Origin: Mariniplasma anaerobium
Lineage (GTDB): Bacteria > Bacillota_I > Bacilli_A > Acholeplasmatales > Acholeplasmataceae
Assembly: GCF_016865445.1 (NCBI RefSeq)
Contig: NZ_AP024412.1
Coordinates: 1,240,001-1,304,000 of the forward strand
Direction of reading: 5' to 3'
Length of the DNA: 64,000 nt
Made by a program: the position numbers and the translations under genes. The notes under the pieces were generated by a model. It did no database searches, was not told where the DNA came from, and saw only the letters and a list, made by a program, of their open reading frames with translations. Positions 19,039-27,977 of the stretch are shown piece after piece (within the stretch, counting starts at the first letter, position 1; every line of letters starts with the position of its first letter).

Positions 19039-19067
19039 AAAAAAACTACTTATAAAAAGTAGTTTTA
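19039..19067 (-). terminator. Terminator of the trk operon
   Basis: Nine-base stem AAAACTACT / AGTAGTTTT with a seven-base loop, overlapping the trkH stop codon and followed by a T-run on the minus strand. Confidence 0.8.
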
Positions 19068-20534
19068 AGCTTTTTTCTTTATATCAATAAATATTTTAGT
19101 TAAAGCAATAAATACAACATAGAATTCTAGTCTACCTAAAAACATACCAACAGTTGAAGTCCATAAGACAATTGGATTTGCATCATAGCCAACAATACCA
19201 ACTGATAGTCCAACAGTACCTAAAGCTGATGCGAATTCAAATAATGATTCTCTAATGGTAAACCCAAGTCCTGTAAAGATTAATGTTCCTGTAAATAATG
19301 CAAGCAAATAAATCATTAAAAATGAATAGTTTTGCACAACTTCATCTTTTGTTACAACAGTTTTATTTCCTATTTTATTGATAAAATGTGTTCGAATTGT
19401 TTTCTTATGTCCAAATTGTTCTCTAATATTCCAATAAAGACTCTTAAAAGCTAGTGCTACTCTATATTGTTTCATCCCGCCAGCAGTTGATCCCATACCA
19501 GCACCTAAGACCATCACAATAACTAATACTGCAATAAATGTTGGTGGCATAACGGTAAAGGTATCAATGGTTTGAAATCCTGTACCTGTAACAGCAGAAA
19601 TAAATTGAAATGATGCAACTCTCAATGTATGAAAGAAATTTCCATCATACATACTATATAAATTAATAACTAACATTGGAATAAAGATTAAAAGTAGGAT
19701 ACCTAATAATTTGATTTCAACATGTCTATACACATTTTTGAATTTACCTCTTAATAACATCAAATGTACAAAGAAGTTTGTTCCACCAAGTAGCATTAAA
19801 ATCATAATCGTAACTTCTACACCAACACTATTAAATGCGCCTATACTAAGACTTTCAGTTGAAAATCCACCGGTTGCTACTGCAGTAATTGAATGATTAA
19901 TTGCTTCAAATGGAGTCATTTCAAATATGATTAAAAATACAGATCCAACCAAAATATATCCTATATAAATACTTAATATCATACGTCCTGATTTAATTAA
20001 GTTAGGAACTAGTTTATCACTGTGTCCTTCTGCACTATATAGTCTCATTCCAAATTTATCACTAATTGCTGAAGTAAGAACTAAGACAAGTCCAACCCCA
20101 CCAACAAATTGTAGTAAACTTCTAAAGAATAAAAATATATGTGGTGTAACAGTTACATCAACAACCGTTAAACCAGTTGTTGAATATCCTGATGTCGATT
20201 CAAATATTGCTTGCGTAAAATTATAATTTCCTGTTAATACAAATGGTAGAGAAGATACAAAGATACCTAAAATCCAAATGGACATAACTAAAATGGCATC
20301 TTGAGATCTTTCTAAACGATCTTTTTCTCTTCCTTTATATATTAAAACAATAAGTGAACCAATAAAAATCGCTGATAAAGCTGGAATAAAGAAATATTTA
20401 GCTTCTACTATCTCTTCTGGATAAAATGGAATAACAAGTAATGGTATTAAGTTTATAACACCAATTAAGATGGCAAATATGCCTAAATAATTGATTATTA
20501 ATGGATAACCTGATATATTCTTTTTAATATTCAT
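19065..20534 (-). CDS. TrkH-family potassium uptake channel subunit
   Basis: Membrane subunit of a Trk/Ktr K+ uptake system, 489 residues from the ATG at 20534, one base after the trkA stop. Pore-loop filters of this family are visible, for example ESTSGYSTTGLTVVD, TAVATGGFS and GTGFQTI, with GAGMGSTAGGMKQYR as the last conserved block. A longer frame starting inside trkA is rejected because it would overlap the regulator by 61 bases. It would work with the two TrkA-type proteins encoded directly upstream, which bind nucleotide on the cytoplasmic face and gate the channel. Confidence 0.88.
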   Translation of the reverse strand: MNIKKNISGYPLIINYLGIFAILIGVINLIPLLVIPFYPEEIVEAKYFFIPALSAIFIGSLIVLIYKGREKDRLERSQDAILVMSIWILGIFVSSLPFVLTGNYNFTQAIFESTSGYSTTGLTVVDVTVTPHIFLFFRSLLQFVGGVGLVLVLTSAISDKFGMRLYSAEGHSDKLVPNLIKSGRMILSIYIGYILVGSVFLIIFEMTPFEAINHSITAVATGGFSTESLSIGAFNSVGVEVTIMILMLLGGTNFFVHLMLLRGKFKNVYRHVEIKLLGILLLIFIPMLVINLYSMYDGNFFHTLRVASFQFISAVTGTGFQTIDTFTVMPPTFIAVLVIVMVLGAGMGSTAGGMKQYRVALAFKSLYWNIREQFGHKKTIRTHFINKIGNKTVVTKDEVVQNYSFLMIYLLALFTGTLIFTGLGFTIRESLFEFASALGTVGLSVGIVGYDANPIVLWTSTVGMFLGRLEFYVVFIALTKIFIDIKKKA

Positions 20535-20535
20535 G

Positions 20536-21198
20536 TTATTTTCTCTTTTGTACAAATTCCACAATTTCTTCTTGATCGTTAGGCGTTGTAACAATAATTA
20601 ACTTATCATCTGCCTTAATCAATGTATCCCCTTTAGGAATAATGACATGTGGATCTCTAAAAATACAACTTATATTAATATTTGATGGGAATTTGATATC
20701 CATTAATCTTTTATTAACGATGTTATGCTCTGGTTCAACACCAATTTCAATCATTACTATTTTTTCATCCTCTATAGAAAGTGTTTTAATGATATTTTCA
20801 ACAGAAGATTCATTTAAAATGGTTTGTGCAAGTAGGTAAGTTGAACTGATGACACTATCCACACCTAAACGTTTAAATAGTTCTACATTTTTTGGGTTTT
20901 TTACTTTTGCTACTGTTCTTTTAATATTAAAAAGTTTTTTAGCAGTAATACAAGTGATATAATTATCGGTATCACTATCTGATAATGCAAGTAAAACATC
21001 CGCATTATGCGCTTCTGCATCTGATAGAACATATGCTTTTGTCGGATCTCCTGGAAATACACCGATATCATTATTTGCACTAATGTATTCAGCAAAATCT
21101 ATATCTTGATTAATAATAATCAATTGATGATGTTCTTTTTTTAGTTTGCTTACGATATAGTCAGCTTCGTGTTTTCCGCCAGTAATTACAATTTTCAT
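20536..21198 (-). CDS. TrkA-type potassium uptake regulator (N and C domains)
   Basis: A 220-residue cytoplasmic gating subunit. The TrkA-N Rossmann domain (1-120) starts IVITGGKHEADYIVSKL, a degenerate nucleotide loop with GGKHEA in place of the usual GxGxxG, and contains GDPTK. A TrkA-C domain (about 135-218) follows with DIKFPSNINISCIFRD and PKGDTLIKADDKLIIV. It overlaps the smaller TrkA-N gene by 4 bases (ATGA) and abuts trkH. The pair of one degenerate and one canonical RCK domain suggests a hetero-oligomeric gating ring. Confidence 0.85.
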   Translation of the reverse strand: MKIVITGGKHEADYIVSKLKKEHHQLIIINQDIDFAEYISANNDIGVFPGDPTKAYVLSDAEAHNADVLLALSDSDTDNYITCITAKKLFNIKRTVAKVKNPKNVELFKRLGVDSVISSTYLLAQTILNESSVENIIKTLSIEDEKIVMIEIGVEPEHNIVNKRLMDIKFPSNINISCIFRDPHVIIPKGDTLIKADDKLIIVTTPNDQEEIVEFVQKRK

Positions 21199-21614
21199 TC
21201 AGCTGCCTCCTCATCATTTAAATCCATAAATTCACTATATGATAAATTAAATGGATAGATTGCTTTAATCATTGTACCTTCTAAAAGTTTTCCTTTATCT
21301 GTATCAGATAATCTAACAAATATTTTAGGTACATTATAGACGTAAAAACAAATGTGAGCTAAATAAATATTCACATTATCACTATCAGTTGTAATAACAA
21401 CTGTTTTTGCTTGTTTAATATATGAATTTTCTAAAATAGTAAGATCTGTTGCATCTCCTACAACTTGATAGCCAGAAAATGATTCTTGTAATTTTCTAAA
21501 TGAATCATCTACTGCATCAATAATAATGACATCTTCTCCTAATTCTGACATAGAAGTTGCAATATTCGATCCTAGTCTTCCTGAACCAATGACAATGAAC
21601 TTATTTCTTTTCAT
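21195..21614 (-). CDS. TrkA-N domain protein (single RCK domain)
   Basis: A 139-residue protein made of one TrkA-N nucleotide-binding domain with the intact loop IGSGRLGSNIA and the acidic residue after strand two (IIIDA), so NAD(H) or ATP binding is likely. It has no TrkA-C domain. AAAGGAG is seven bases before the ATG at 21614; the ATG six bases upstream would touch the ribosome site and is rejected. It is the first gene of the trk operon. The combination with a longer TrkA and one TrkH is a three-gene uptake system. Confidence 0.82.
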   Translation of the reverse strand: MKRNKFIVIGSGRLGSNIATSMSELGEDVIIIDAVDDSFRKLQESFSGYQVVGDATDLTILENSYIKQAKTVVITTDSDNVNIYLAHICFYVYNVPKIFVRLSDTDKGKLLEGTMIKAIYPFNLSYSEFMDLNDEEAAE

Positions 21615-21702
21615 AATCATACTCCTTTAAATTTTATGCCTAAATACATAGTTTCATGATACCTTATACATTTTAACATTATTTCGTAAAAAGTGCATTA
21701 AA

Positions 21703-22914
21703 TTATACTATATTTACGTTTATTTTATCATGTTTTACTGGATTATCTAAGAGTTTTTGATATGTTTTATCCATCAAAATAGCACCAAATGGAGCAGTTA
21801 TACATATTGCAACCACAGAGACCATCAAGATCAATTCACCATTTGCTAACCCTAGAGAAAGTGGAATCGCACCTATTGCAGCTTGAACAGTTGCTTTTGG
21901 TGTATATGAAATAGCTGTAAACAATTTTTCTTTACCATTCAAGTTTGTTTTTAAAAGGGCTAAATATACACCAAACATTCTAAAAACCATTGCTAAAATG
22001 ATTAATACTATTGACCATAAACCAACACTTAATAATACTGATACATCTACTAAAGCTCCAACTAATACAAAGAGTATAATTTCAGCTATGACCCATATTT
22101 TCTCAAATTTTTTAACTAATCTTTCTGATAATACTGGATGATAATTTTTTAATGAAATACCAAATGACATCACGGCTAATAAACCACTTAGCGCAATAAC
22201 TTGACTCAAAGCATCTTCAAGGGAGACAGCTAAAAATCCAATTGAAAATATAATAAGAACTTTTACAGTATCTCTCATATGGAACTTCTTAAAAAAGATA
22301 GATGCTAAATATCCTGATATAACACCAATAAATATGCCTAAAGCTATTGAAAGAGGGACATTAAGTATTGTTGTAACATGGAAATTCTCACCTTGTCCTA
22401 ATTTTAAAAACGCATAAAATAAAACAATGACATAAACATCATCAATGGATGCACCTGCTAAAATCATTTGTGGTATATTTTTGTTTTTACCATGTCCACT
22501 TTCAATGAGTTTAATCATTCTAGGAACAACAACAGCAGGTGATACTGCTGCTACAATCGCACCCATGATTGCTGCTGTCGTATAAGATATATCAAATATG
22601 ACTGGTGCAAGTAAAGTAATCGCTAAAATTTCAATGGTTGCTGGAACAAATGATAACAAAATTGCAGGTCTTCCTACTTTTTTTAAATCACTGATATCAA
22701 GTGATAATCCCGCTCTTATTAAAATAACAATTAAAGCTATTTTTCTAAGTTCAGCTGATATATTTAATATATCAATATCAATTAAATCAAGTGCATAAGG
22801 ACCAATAATCATACCTGTTAAAAGCATACCTAGGATTGTTGGTAGTTTGATGAGATTAAAGATTTTAGATAATAATAGACTACTTAAAATGATGATGGAT
22901 ATACTTAATAACAT
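21703..22914 (-). CDS. CPA-family cation:proton antiporter under riboswitch control
   Basis: A 403-residue membrane protein with about 12 helices of the monovalent cation:proton antiporter (NhaP/Kef) fold. Conserved motifs include LPTILGMLLTGMIIGP, RAGLSLD, AVSPAVVVPRM and GASIDDVYVIVLFYAF, where the DD pair in a membrane helix is the likely ion-binding site, and YTPKATVQAAIGAIPL. There is no C-terminal TrkA domain. Its leader carries a sequence matching the fluoride (crcB) riboswitch, and antiporters of this type are among the genes known to be under that element. A role in fluoride tolerance, directly or by ion homeostasis, is therefore inferred. Confidence 0.85.
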   Translation of the reverse strand: MLLSISIIILSSLLLSKIFNLIKLPTILGMLLTGMIIGPYALDLIDIDILNISAELRKIALIVILIRAGLSLDISDLKKVGRPAILLSFVPATIEILAITLLAPVIFDISYTTAAIMGAIVAAVSPAVVVPRMIKLIESGHGKNKNIPQMILAGASIDDVYVIVLFYAFLKLGQGENFHVTTILNVPLSIALGIFIGVISGYLASIFFKKFHMRDTVKVLIIFSIGFLAVSLEDALSQVIALSGLLAVMSFGISLKNYHPVLSERLVKKFEKIWVIAEIILFVLVGALVDVSVLLSVGLWSIVLIILAMVFRMFGVYLALLKTNLNGKEKLFTAISYTPKATVQAAIGAIPLSLGLANGELILMVSVVAICITAPFGAILMDKTYQKLLDNPVKHDKINVNIV

Positions 22915-22928
22915 ATATTTCTCCTTTT

Positions 22929-23018
22929 TAAAAAAAATAGACTCTACAACAAAAAAGTTGTAGAAGTCATCAGCAATTGCGGTTTTAGTATAAAACTAAG
23001 GGAGACATTCATTCCCTA
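22929..23018 (-). promoter_or_regulatory. Fluoride (crcB-type) riboswitch with terminator
   Basis: Read on the minus strand, the leader begins with a hairpin GGGAAUGAAUGUCUCCC. A small extra hairpin follows (UUAGU...ACUAA), then AACCGC, a very short stem, and the conserved GCUGAUGACUUCUAC. This order and wording match the crcB/fluoride aptamer. GAAUGUC in the first loop can pair with GACUUC, the expected pseudoknot, with one bulge. The last aptamer bases also form the 5' side of a terminator stem CUACAAC / GUUGUAG (22944-22963) followed by eight U, so ligand binding would free transcription. Confidence 0.82.
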
Positions 23019-23023
23019 GACTT

Positions 23024-23051
23024 ATTATAAGTATATTTACAAATATGTCAA
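23024..23051 (-). promoter_or_regulatory. Consensus promoter of the antiporter gene
   Basis: TTGACA (23046-23051) and TATAAT (23024-23029) on the minus strand with a 16-base spacer. The -35 overlaps the stop codon of the upstream DUF1295 gene, and transcription would start near 23017, at the first base of the riboswitch. Confidence 0.85.
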
Positions 23052-23928: not shown

Positions 23929-23989
23929 ATAATAGACTAATTATTGGAAGACAATATAATTTGAAATATTCGCGAAGGTGGGGAATAAT

Positions 23990-24688
23990 ATGGAACAGGA
24001 ATTAATTGAAGATACTGAAATTGACTTAATACATTTAATTAAACTAATATTAAAAAAGTGGATTTTAATTGGGATTGTAACTGTGGCTATTGCTACAGCG
24101 GTAGGGCTTTATGCCTATATCGCACTAGATGATGTCTATACAGCTGAATCAAGTATGATTGTTCAAGTAACTAGTTCAACCGATTCTGAATATACAGCGT
24201 TATTAACAGGACAAAGATTAGTAGATACCTATTCAGAGATTGCAGAAAGCAATCGTGTATTAGAAGCACTAAAAGTAAATTTAGGAATTGATTATACTAA
24301 TTCTCAGTTAAGAGGAATGATTAGTGTAAACAGTGTTAACGATACTTTAATTATCAATTTGTCAGTCGAAAGTACTGATCCAGTACTGGCAGGTCAAATT
24401 GCAAACGAACTTGTAAGTATAGTTAAAGACCTTTCAAATGAATTTGAAGGACTTGAAAATGTAGAAGTTTTAGATACTGCCTTAACTCCAGTTTCTCCAA
24501 GTGGACCAAATAGAATGTTATATTTAGTTGTAGGGATTTCACTTGGTGGTATGTTAGGAGTAGGAATCGTTCTCGCAATTGAGTTTTTATGTAAAGATAT
24601 TAAAACAGGAAGAGATATCGAAAAAGTCTTAGGTCTAAGACTTCTTGGACTCATTCCTGATTATTCTATGGATGAGGAGCTTAAATAA
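23990..24688 (+). CDS. Wzz/CpsC-like polysaccharide chain-length and kinase-activator protein
   Basis: A 232-residue membrane protein with the Wzz layout: an N-terminal helix (about 26-48), an extracellular region, PVSPSGPNR before a second helix (about 171-195), and a short cytoplasmic tail. In Gram-positive systems (CpsC, YwqC) the tail activates the separate tyrosine kinase encoded next, as here. The frame can be opened at a GTG at 23978, but AAGGTGGGG would then lie on the start. The ATG at 23990 has that ribosome site at good distance and is chosen. It is the first gene of a truncated exopolysaccharide operon. Confidence 0.87.
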   Translation: MEQELIEDTEIDLIHLIKLILKKWILIGIVTVAIATAVGLYAYIALDDVYTAESSMIVQVTSSTDSEYTALLTGQRLVDTYSEIAESNRVLEALKVNLGIDYTNSQLRGMISVNSVNDTLIINLSVESTDPVLAGQIANELVSIVKDLSNEFEGLENVEVLDTALTPVSPSGPNRMLYLVVGISLGGMLGVGIVLAIEFLCKDIKTGRDIEKVLGLRLLGLIPDYSMDEELK

Positions 24689-24690
24689 CT

Positions 24691-25365
24691 ATGCCAAACT
24701 ATAAAGTTATAACTAATATAGATCCTCACTGTTCTGTAAGTGAACAATATCGTAAATTAAGAACAAGTATTGATTATTCTGGTTTTGATCAAGAATTAAA
24801 AGTTTTAAATTTAACAAGTACTTTCCCAAACGAAGGAAAGACAGTTACTTGTATCAATTTAGCGACAGTTTACTCTCAAACAAAAGAAAAAGTATTACTT
24901 TTAGACTTGGACTTACGTAAACCTAAAATTCACCGTGCCTTTGGTCTTTCTAATAAAGGCGGAGTAAGCGATTATATAACAAATGAACATTCGATTGATG
25001 AAAATATCCATCACATTGATGAATATTTAGATGTTTTAGTGTCTGGGTCAAAAGTACCTTTCCCAGTTGAAGTTTTAGTTTCTAAGAAGATTAAAGAAAT
25101 GATGATTGAATTACGTGGCAAATACGACAAAATAATTATTGACTGTCCTCCGCTTACAGCAGTTGCTGATTCAACAATTATCTCGAATTTCAGCGATGGA
25201 ACTATCTTTGTTGTTGCTTCGAGAAAAACTAATTCAGATATCGCAAATGGAGTATTAAAACAGCTAAGAGAATCTGGCGCTAATCTTATTGGTGGAGTTC
25301 TTACAAAAGTTCAAAAAAGCGATTCATATTACGGTATGGACTACTATTATTACGGGGATGAATAA
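24691..25365 (+). CDS. BY-kinase (CpsD/YwqD-like tyrosine kinase)
   Basis: A 224-residue cytoplasmic bacterial tyrosine kinase that would autophosphorylate and control polysaccharide assembly. Walker A is STFPNEGKT (Asn where Gly is usual), Walker A' is LLDLDLRKP, and Walker B is IIIDCPP. The C-terminal tail holds the tyrosine cluster YYGMDYYYYGDE, the autophosphorylation region. It starts two bases after the Wzz-like gene, its expected membrane activator, and is followed by its likely phosphatase. Confidence 0.9.
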   Translation: MPNYKVITNIDPHCSVSEQYRKLRTSIDYSGFDQELKVLNLTSTFPNEGKTVTCINLATVYSQTKEKVLLLDLDLRKPKIHRAFGLSNKGGVSDYITNEHSIDENIHHIDEYLDVLVSGSKVPFPVEVLVSKKIKEMMIELRGKYDKIIIDCPPLTAVADSTIISNFSDGTIFVVASRKTNSDIANGVLKQLRESGANLIGGVLTKVQKSDSYYGMDYYYYGDE

Positions 25366-25426
25366 TTATTAGCTGTCAGCAATGGCGGCTATTGTTCTAT
25401 ACTAACAGGGAAAGGGGAAGCAAGTT

Positions 25427-26128
25427 ATGATAGATATTCATACACATCTATTATTTGATGTTGACGATGGGTGTAAAAAAATCGAAGATTCTTTAGAAAT
25501 GATTGAAAAAGCGATTGAAGTTGGAATAACTGATTTATTTGTTACTCCTCATTATTCTTTTAGAAGAAAGTTTACTGTAACATATGATGTTATTGAAGAA
25601 AGATTCTTATTACTTAAAGAAGCAGTTGCTCAAAAAGGATTAAAAGTGAACTTATATCTTGGTAGTGAAATAGATGAAACAAGTGATTTAAACAACTTTT
25701 TAGAAAATAATATGTGTCATAAACTCGATAATTCTAAATATGTATTAATTGATTTTGGGACAAGAGAAGCAGTGATTGATGATATTTGTTATGAACTTAT
25801 TGTTGAAGGATATATTCCGATTATTGCTCATCCTGAAAGATATTCATATATTAAAGATTTTAATACATTTAAACAATGGAAAGAAACGGGAGCTTTAATT
25901 CAAATTAATGCCTCTAGTTTGTTTGCTTCAAAGCAAATTAAAAAACAAGTTAAAAAATTAATTAAGAATAATTTGGTTGATTTTGTTTCGAGTGATTCTC
26001 ATCGAAACAGTTCAACCTTTGAATACTTTAAACAAGCATATCAATATATTGAAAAGAAACAGGGGATAGAGAAGGCGAAGATGATATTCATCTCTAATCC
26101 TAAAAAGATTATACTGGGGGAGGAGTAA
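25427..26128 (+). CDS. CpsB/YwqE-like PHP-type tyrosine phosphatase
   Basis: A 233-residue metal-dependent protein-tyrosine phosphatase of the PHP superfamily. Metal-site motifs are in place: MIDIHTHLLFDVDDG at the N terminus, TPHY near 44, GSEID near 80, IAHPERY near 137 and SSDSHR near 188. It would dephosphorylate the tyrosine tail of the BY-kinase encoded just upstream. Short AT-rich spacing (60 bases) separates the two. The family also occurs outside polysaccharide loci, but the order Wzz-kinase-phosphatase here is the standard one. Confidence 0.9.
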   Translation: MIDIHTHLLFDVDDGCKKIEDSLEMIEKAIEVGITDLFVTPHYSFRRKFTVTYDVIEERFLLLKEAVAQKGLKVNLYLGSEIDETSDLNNFLENNMCHKLDNSKYVLIDFGTREAVIDDICYELIVEGYIPIIAHPERYSYIKDFNTFKQWKETGALIQINASSLFASKQIKKQVKKLIKNNLVDFVSSDSHRNSSTFEYFKQAYQYIEKKQGIEKAKMIFISNPKKIILGEE

Positions 26129-26132
26129 GCAT

Positions 26133-27977
26133 ATGAAATCTTATAAAAGTTTTATTGTACTTTGTTTAGATATCTTTGTGATATTTGTTGGTTTTACTAT
26201 GGCTCTTTTCTTAAAAGATGAGTTTGTTTTTTATCCTGAAGACTTTCTTAGCTTGTTAAAAAAGTTTCCTTTTATAATTTTCACTTATCTAATCTTGTTT
26301 TATTTTTTAGGAATGTACAAAAGTGTTTGGAAATATGTCTCATTTGAATAAGCTATTCGTGGTGTAACTGCGAATTTTATAGCTATTAATTTATCATATT
26401 TAATATTGATGATGTTTAAGCTTGATTACTTTCAGTATAATTTATATGCGATTGCCTTTTTTACTGTTTCGACTCTAACACTTGGAACAAGACTAAGTTA
26501 TCGTACATATAAGTATTATTTATCACACTGGAAGACTTCATCCTCACTAGATAGAACGTTAATTATTGGCGCAGGGAACGCAGGCATTTTACTTTTTGAT
26601 GAAATATCTAAAAATCCTAAGTTCAATATGAGAGTAATTGGTTTTATTGATGACAATGACAAATTAGCAGGCAAAACAATCAGAGGAATTCCTGTGCTTG
26701 GAACAACAGATGATTTAAGTGAGGTTGTTTTTAAATATAAGGCAGTTGTAACTGTTATCGCAATTCCAAGTCTTGGTATAAAAGATACTACGGAACTAAT
26801 TAATAAAGTTGAGTTAACTGGAAGTAAAATCAAATTGATGCCACCATTTTATGAAATGGTGGGGAGTAAAGAAAGTTTAGTTAAATTAAGAGATGTTGAT
26901 ATTGTCGACTTGCTTGGTAGAAAACCGATTTACTTAGATGAAGTTGGGATTAAAGAATATATTGATTCTAAAACAATTGTTGTTACTGGTGGTGGAGGAT
27001 CTATTGGATCTGAACTATGTCGACAACTTATAAGGTTTAACCCAAAAAAAATCATAATTATTGACATTTATGAAAATGGTGTATATGATCTTCAAATGGA
27101 ATTTGAAAGAATGTATCGATTAGATTCTTGTTCATTTAAACCTGAGATAATTGTTTTAATAGCTAGTGTAAGAGATGAATTAAGAATCGATGAAATATTT
27201 AAAGAGTACAAGCCAGATGTAGTATTCCATGCAGCGGCACACAAACACGTGCCATTAATGGAAGTTAGTCCAAAGGAAGCAATTAAGAATAATATTTTAG
27301 GAACTTATAATGTTTCTAATATGGCGGATAAACATAAAGTAAAGAAATTTGTCTTTATTTCCACTGATAAAGCAGTAAATCCAACTAATGTCATGGGAGC
27401 GAAAAAAAGATTCGCAGAGCGAATCGTTATGGCTCTTAATGAAGAAAGTTATACTGATTTTGCAGCTGTACGATTTGGAAATGTTCTTGGTAGTAATGGT
27501 TCGGTAATCCCTTTATTTCAGAAGCAAATTGCTGAAGGTGGACCAGTGACAGTTACTCATCCTGAAATTATTAGATACTTTATGACAATCTCTGAAGCAT
27601 GCCAACTTGTGATACAAGCTGGAGCATACGCCAAAGGAGGAGAATTGTTTGTTTTAGATATGGGAGAACCTGTTAAAATTCTTGATTTAGCTGAAAAGTT
27701 AATTAGGCTGTCTGGATTAGAACCATATAGAGATATTGAGATTGAATTTACTGGGCTAAGACCTGGTGAAAAGATGTTTGAAGAGTTGTTAGTTGATTAT
27801 TCAAAAGCACATAAAACAGAAAATGAAAAGATATTTGTAGAACCGGTTTTGGCAGAAAAAAAATATAATGTTTTAGAAGAAATGGCGAATATTGATTCGG
27901 CATTATGTAAAAGTTCAAATGGAACTGCTGTAAAGTTGTTAAAACAATATGTTACAACATATAAAAATGGTGATTAG
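26133..27977 (+). pseudogene. CapD/FlaA1-like NDP-sugar 4,6-dehydratase, interrupted by an in-frame TAA
   Basis: The region encodes a full-length (about 614 codons) membrane-bound polysaccharide dehydratase in one frame, except for a TAA at 26349-26351 (codon 73). Before the stop are three hydrophobic segments. After it the same frame continues with AIRGVTANF, the fourth segment, a nucleotide-binding loop IIGAGNAGILL and the catalytic SDR domain: TGGGGSIGSELCRQ, the STDKAVNPTNVMGAKK active-site block (Met-x3-Lys form) and the closing LRPGEKMFEEL. A single base change from GAA or CAA would explain the TAA. The downstream part has no good ribosome site at the TTG/ATG near 26406. Either the gene is dead, or the stop is a sequencing error, or it is read through. 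Confidence 0.8.

Follow-up and report, generated by a model that had tools for sequence, protein, structure and literature searches.

A hairpin-bearing fluoride riboswitch predicted to control an NHA2-type exchanger in Mariniplasma anaerobium and its relatives

What role might a fluoride riboswitch play in a bacterium in whose genome no known fluoride exporter can be recognised, and why would it be placed ahead of a cation:proton antiporter? This question is raised by a leader on the minus strand of the Mariniplasma anaerobium genome, within a window of 64,000 nucleotides (contig NZ_AP024412.1, positions 1,240,001 to 1,304,000) to whose numbering the coordinates of the locus refer. Known fluoride resistance relies on Fluc/FEX channels and CLC-F exchangers, and where antiporters are involved in fluoride tolerance, they are usually taken to maintain the pH in cells that also have an exporter. 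Neither the riboswitch class nor its control by termination is new, and its association with Na+/H+ antiporters has been published as well; a 2024 review places antiporters as the next-most common class associated with these riboswitches after the exporters (PMC11139923). Our literature search found no paper on a fluoride riboswitch together with Acholeplasma.

The sequence-only reading had claimed a fluoride (crcB) riboswitch and proposed a covariance search as the check. A scan of the 64-kb window bears the claim out, with a full-length match to RF01734 (Fluoride; model positions 1 to 64) at 23025–22954 on the minus strand that scores 37.7 bits (E 7.5e-7), above the gathering score of 34 bits; a scan of the whole 1.90-Mb genome returns it as the sole match. 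We assign this region to the RF01734 fluoride riboswitches, as a hairpin-inserted form of the aptamer predicted from its sequence. The minus-strand segment 23017–22936 folds at −21.0 kcal/mol (z −3.6), a value equalled by 0 of 200 shuffles. Read along the minus strand, the layout is promoter, P1, inserted hairpin, AAACCGC core, 2-bp stem, GCUGAUGAC, pseudoknot strand, terminator, AAGGAG and ATG, and the segment 22929–23051 reaches from the first −35 base to just beyond the U-tract. The sigma-70 promoter (23024–23051) adjoins the aptamer on its upstream side; TTGACA (23051–23046) and TATAAT (23029–23024) are separated by 16 nt and give a consensus score of 12/12, as they do in the 5 congeneric genomes examined, the own genome included. 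Transcription should begin near 23017, where P1 has its first base.

P1 (GGGA/UCCC, strands 23016–23013/23003–23000), recognisable with its loop at 23000–23016 from the sequence, the Rfam alignment and its own fold, is present together with the conserved core of the family. The loop-3' pseudoknot can be read from the sequence as 6 bp with one bulge: bases G23010, A23009, A23008, G23006, U23005 and C23004 are able to pair with the 3' strand GACUUC (22968–22963), leaving U23007 bulged. The following stem, GC-AAUU-GC at 22973–22980, is indeed as short as had been noted, folding into 2 bp (22980–22979/22974–22973). Fluoride affinity of the putative aptamer may be low, because the second stem has only 2 bp and the pseudoknot carries a bulged U. 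In comparison with the RF01734 crcB motif, the locus shares P1, the loop-3' pseudoknot, the ACCGC...GCUGAUGAC core and a terminator that uses the pseudoknot strand, whereas the hairpin between P1 and the core, the 2-bp second stem and the one-nucleotide bulge set it apart.

Relatives of the element were sought at several taxonomic depths. Among 150 related genomes of the order, RF01734 matches with E ≤ 0.001 occur in 69; three matches below 25 bits (the second ones of G003 and G067 and the sole one of G035) were rejected as sequences without the conserved layout and dropped before the counts, leaving 69 riboswitch places in 68 genomes. In the wider class sample, the gene count leaves out three matches below 24.5 bits (G529, G539, G299:C68), and the hairpin count additionally three at 25.2–25.7 bits; two of the latter (G423 and G294, 25.7 bits) look false and were kept in the gene-count denominator of 73. 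A search at the level of the phylum added little to that at the level of the class. An exact pattern demanding the hairpin matched at least 119 stretches in public genomes, and 80 loci examined among them form our public set. Apparent tandem riboswitches in one genome (G246; L163, G246:C6) were rejected: a run of N separates the two aptamers, which are identical, and this is probably an assembly or scaffolding artefact. The relatives keep both the core and P1. A rule-based count finds a 2-bp second stem at 37 of the 69 order sites, the own site included. A five-position test of the pseudoknot in 52 distinct loop/strand pairs of relatives yielded 5 pairs in 25, 4 in 16, 3 in 9 and 2 in 2, with no match at two further places, so that some members of this set fit imperfectly.

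The switching logic is suggested by an intrinsic terminator (22930–22968, minus strand), found in the fold and in an independent terminator listing, whose 11-bp stem (22968–22957/22950–22940) is followed by UA and U8 and has a fold energy of −14.0 kcal/mol (z −5.0). The pseudoknot strand doubles as the base of this stem, which is the overlapping arrangement characteristic of the transcriptional type of RF01734. Since the terminator stem claims all six nucleotides to which the P1 loop pairs in the aptamer, the two folds are mutually exclusive and the gene is expected to be ON with fluoride; the shared strand on which the sequence-only reading had based its ON switch is present, and the direction of switching is predicted from it. 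An overlapping terminator is found by a strict rule at 54/69 order sites, 58/70 class-sample sites and 62/80 public-set sites, three of these 80 being too short for the test, and several of the 15 order sites that fail the rule resemble terminators with a longer left arm. The exclusion between pseudoknot and terminator is established for the Bacillus cereus crcB riboswitch, the transcriptional model system with which the ON switch predicted here agrees (PMC11077080). Terminator logic was put forward for the motif in 2010 (PMC2864571), and a 2026 study reports covariation in its support as well as a massively parallel test in which 323 of 1901 RF01734 sequences (17%) were transcriptional switches with the E. 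coli polymerase (PMC13273304).

Directly after the terminator follow a ribosome-binding site, AAGGAG (22921–22926), and the ATG at 22914 of a gene for a protein of 403 aa (21703–22914, minus strand). This first gene behind the riboswitch matches PF00999 at 8.6e-48, in accordance with its earlier description as a cation:proton antiporter. Its best solved relatives are human and bison NHA2 (SLC9B2; PDB 7b4l, 7p1i; E 4e-41), and its AlphaFold2 model (mean pLDDT 92.6) finds NHA2 as the top Foldseek matches, so that PF00999, model and Foldseek agree on the Na_H_Exchanger fold of the SLC9B type. In NHA2, D277 and D278 form the ion site, E214 and R431 an NHA2-specific salt bridge, and K459 and T461 have been discussed as well (PMC8850199). 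The phmmer alignment sets E95, D158, D159, R312, K340 and T342 of the locus protein against bison E214, D277, D278, R431, K459 and T461, which gives it the DD motif, the Glu-Arg pair and the ion-site Lys and Thr. All six residues are invariant among 70 aligned riboswitch-linked antiporters, that is, the locus protein and 69 of 89 eligible ones that are <75% identical to each other. The protein is of the NHA2 type (SLC9B) and a predicted Na+/Li+ exchanger; despite the conserved ion site and the matching fold, it is bacterial, has 403 aa and is about 31% identical to NHA2 in the structural alignment. A paralogue in the own genome (G000:C1:1335334-1336431), 26% identical over the aligned part, has no riboswitch match.

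We consider a transcriptional fluoride riboswitch of the hairpin-inserted form, controlling an NHA2-type exchanger, to be the best explanation of the locus, with a probability of roughly 0.88. RNA polymerase would start at P1. Without fluoride, the terminator would capture the 3' strand of the pseudoknot and transcription would stop ahead of the antiporter start codon; Mg2+-bound fluoride would lock the pseudoknot and bar the terminator, and the NHA2-type Na+(Li+)/H+ exchanger would be made.

The linkage is not peculiar to this locus. An antiporter homologue comes first behind the aptamer at 66 of the 69 order sites (65 under a stricter rule, which drops G109, where the frame opens inside the aptamer); of the three other sites, one lies on a cut contig (G144), one is an orphan (G134:C75) and one is decayed (G089). 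The same holds for 62/73 class-sample and 59/80 public-set sites, many of the remaining public sites lying at the end of the available stretch. Of 19 first proteins without an antiporter match, 10 were sent to Pfam, and these comprise five CLC, two CrcB, one MutS-like, one HD and one marginal NifU_N. Over the 150 genomes, riboswitch and antiporter occur together in 66, the antiporter alone in 13, the riboswitch alone in 2 and neither in 69, one paralogue match of 27% identity (G116) being scored as neither. One riboswitch-only genome, G089, has a damaged P1 and a mere relic of the antiporter start: its riboswitch (L068, about 7073–6900, minus strand) is decayed, with P1 and hairpin broken and no more than the first codons of the antiporter left behind it, an apparent co-decay of sensor and gene. 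The orphan (L042, G134:C75:9387-9461) is a second fluoride riboswitch in a genome that has an intact riboswitch–antiporter pair at G134:C4.

Ten full-length antiporter homologues from the 13 antiporter-only genomes were searched with permissive Rfam filters, three gene fragments (G013, G098, G140) being left out, and no fluoride riboswitch was found upstream of any of them. A present yet missed riboswitch is accordingly rejected for these ten genes, and the protein is therefore not used for fluoride alone. By eye, two riboswitch-free homologues (L303 and L304, in G037 and G041) begin just behind another open frame, perhaps as members of a different operon.

What could an exchanger contribute where exporters are lacking? 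Neither Fluc/CrcB (PF02537) nor CLC (PF00654) has a match in the genome or in the controlled gene, and the earlier remark that no CrcB or EriC-F gene lies nearby can be extended to the genome as a whole. Across the 150 order genomes Fluc exceeds the cut-off in 0 and CLC in 22; CLC is present in 12 of the 68 genomes with the riboswitch, which leaves 56 with neither. Absence of exporters from the riboswitch genomes is probable, not proven, because some order genomes are incomplete and because another family of the order has four genomes with weak, sub-threshold Fluc matches, three of which carry the riboswitch.

This pattern lends some appeal to the idea that the antiporter is itself a fluoride remover unrelated to Fluc and CLC, whether it exports F− itself or admits H+ so that trapped F− leaves as HF: it is the gene behind nearly all riboswitches of the order, most of them in genomes where neither exporter is recognised, as in M. 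anaerobium. However, direct F− transport is unlikely, because the ion site marks the protein as a cation exchanger, and the weak Fluc matches leave room for divergent exporters that were perhaps missed. Antiporters elsewhere also accompany real exporters: the Clostridioides difficile CD0656-7 operon resembles our locus in joining a fluoride riboswitch to a Na+ or K+/H+ antiporter of the NhaP type, but it contains a CLC exporter in the same operon, whereas no exporter was found in the genome studied here (PMC11477304). We regard such a remover as rather unlikely.

The direction of exchange matters here. HF would enter the cell, F− and H+ would build up, Mg-F would bind the aptamer and the antiporter would be made. 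By weak-acid reasoning, the F− ratio at equilibrium tracks the pH difference. An exchanger that expels H+ would defend the pH and, because the F− ratio follows the pH difference, increase F− trapping; one that admits H+ would unload F− as HF. We infer that expulsion is reasonable in exporter-bearing cells, while admission offers the better detoxifying logic for cells without an exporter. Extended to the order, the latter would make the fluoride-induced NHA2-type exchanger its main fluoride defence, taking H+ in for Na+, lowering the pH difference that traps F− and allowing HF to leave with no fluoride-specific exporter, a proposal that we find attractive but doubtful. Most likely, the exchanger's task would be to readjust the pH and Na+ of the cytoplasm once HF has entered, when the cell faces an acid load and F− becomes trapped.

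The reach of the riboswitch could be wider than one gene. Behind the antiporter, on the same strand, lie two TrkA-type proteins (one with TrkA_N only, the other with TrkA_N and TrkA_C) and the K+-uptake gene TrkH (together 19065–21620), then a LytTR protein and a beta-propeller protein. If the riboswitch drove the whole K+/H+ cluster of antiporter, TrkA-type proteins and TrkH, fluoride would induce a K+ cycle. The shared strand, the absence of any terminator found between antiporter and RCK on the minus strand, and the antiporter–RCK order kept in 28 genomes of the family (own included), mostly with TrkH next, are consistent with such control. It is weakened by the extended −10-like motif TGNTARAAT, which occurs in 25 of the 28 antiporter–RCK gaps against 0.6 expected after shuffling, and by TrkH, which is presumably needed without fluoride because it is the only copy in the genome; moreover, the stretches examined for families f3 and f5 show none of these K+ genes in recognisable form behind the antiporter linked to the riboswitch. 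Fluoride control of the cluster appears unlikely, and the TrkA/TrkH genes are probably a neighbouring K+-uptake operon with its own putative promoter, which may receive some read-through. The split TrkA, TrkH, LytTR and beta-propeller genes (21620–16383, minus strand) form a syntenic cluster that recurs throughout the genus and in several related genera. On the other side of the locus, a divergent operon (23978–27977, plus strand) appears, judged by eye, to contain genes for surface-polysaccharide chain-length control, a tyrosine kinase, a phosphatase and a nucleotide-sugar epimerase.

The small hairpin that had been described between the first stem and the core is present at 22999–22985 as UUAGU-UUUAU-ACUAA, with 5 bp and a 5-nt loop, and is tolerated within the RF01734 score as an insertion. 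The Bacillus cereus crcB riboswitch is not known to carry it. The hairpin is nevertheless shared by relatives: an insert of at least 9 nt separates P1 and core at 69/69 order sites, and in the class sample it is present at 46 and missing at 24 of 70 parsed sites. Among 176 distinct inserts pooled from the order, the wider class sample and public contigs, 147 form an uninterrupted stem of 4 bp or more; shuffled inserts do so in 51 cases on average (maximum 65), and exchange of 3' halves among the sequences gives 61 on average (maximum 79). Each stem position shows several pair types among relatives. Compensated stems in excess of both controls, together with this diversity of pairs, establish the hairpin as a real helix, maintained by pairing and not by sequence.

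Matches of the hairpin-demanding pattern include Clostridia, Enterococcus, Erysipelotrichia and Trichococcus, as well as metagenome-assembled genomes (MAGs) labelled Spirochaetales, Eggerthellales and Elusimicrobia; because the pattern itself required the hairpin, the public set is silent on how frequently it is absent. The hairpin is a family trait, neither universal nor rare, and not peculiar to the locus. Nor is it tied to antiporters, because in the Eggerthellales MAG (L211) the hairpin-bearing form precedes a CrcB gene. In the Elusimicrobia MAG (L244) it precedes a MutS-like gene (Pfam MutS_V), and mutS is among the gene types named for the motif in 2010 (PMC2864571). A literature search that did not cover the original 2012 paper returned no published account of the inserted hairpin, and its absence from the literature is unproven. 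Maintenance by base-pair change could be taken as a sign of a further regulatory function, with the hairpin binding a protein or forming a second ligand pocket, for instance. Such a function is very improbable, as stem and loop sequences vary freely, the loops are mostly of 3–4 nt, and hairpin-less members of the class control the same antiporter; the hairpin would rather be a peripheral structural module and no second sensor.

That the RF01734 match might be a chance similarity or a functionless, decayed copy, as its score of a mere 3.7 bits above the gathering score could suggest, is scarcely credible in view of the 69 conserved places in 68 genomes, the compensatory changes, the intact promoter and terminator, and the different appearance of the truly decayed copy in G089.

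As the covarying hairpin demonstrates, a whole helix can be accommodated in the linker that joins P1 to the core of the fluoride riboswitch, which is useful for engineering and for revision of the Rfam model. The riboswitch has been kept in 68 of the 150 genomes of the order, nearly always before one cation exchanger, and in 56 of these 68 without a recognisable exporter. In such an antiporter-led, exporter-poor lineage the role of the antiporter in fluoride tolerance is therefore testable on its own, and the locus raises the question of whether an antiporter may protect cells that have no known exporter.
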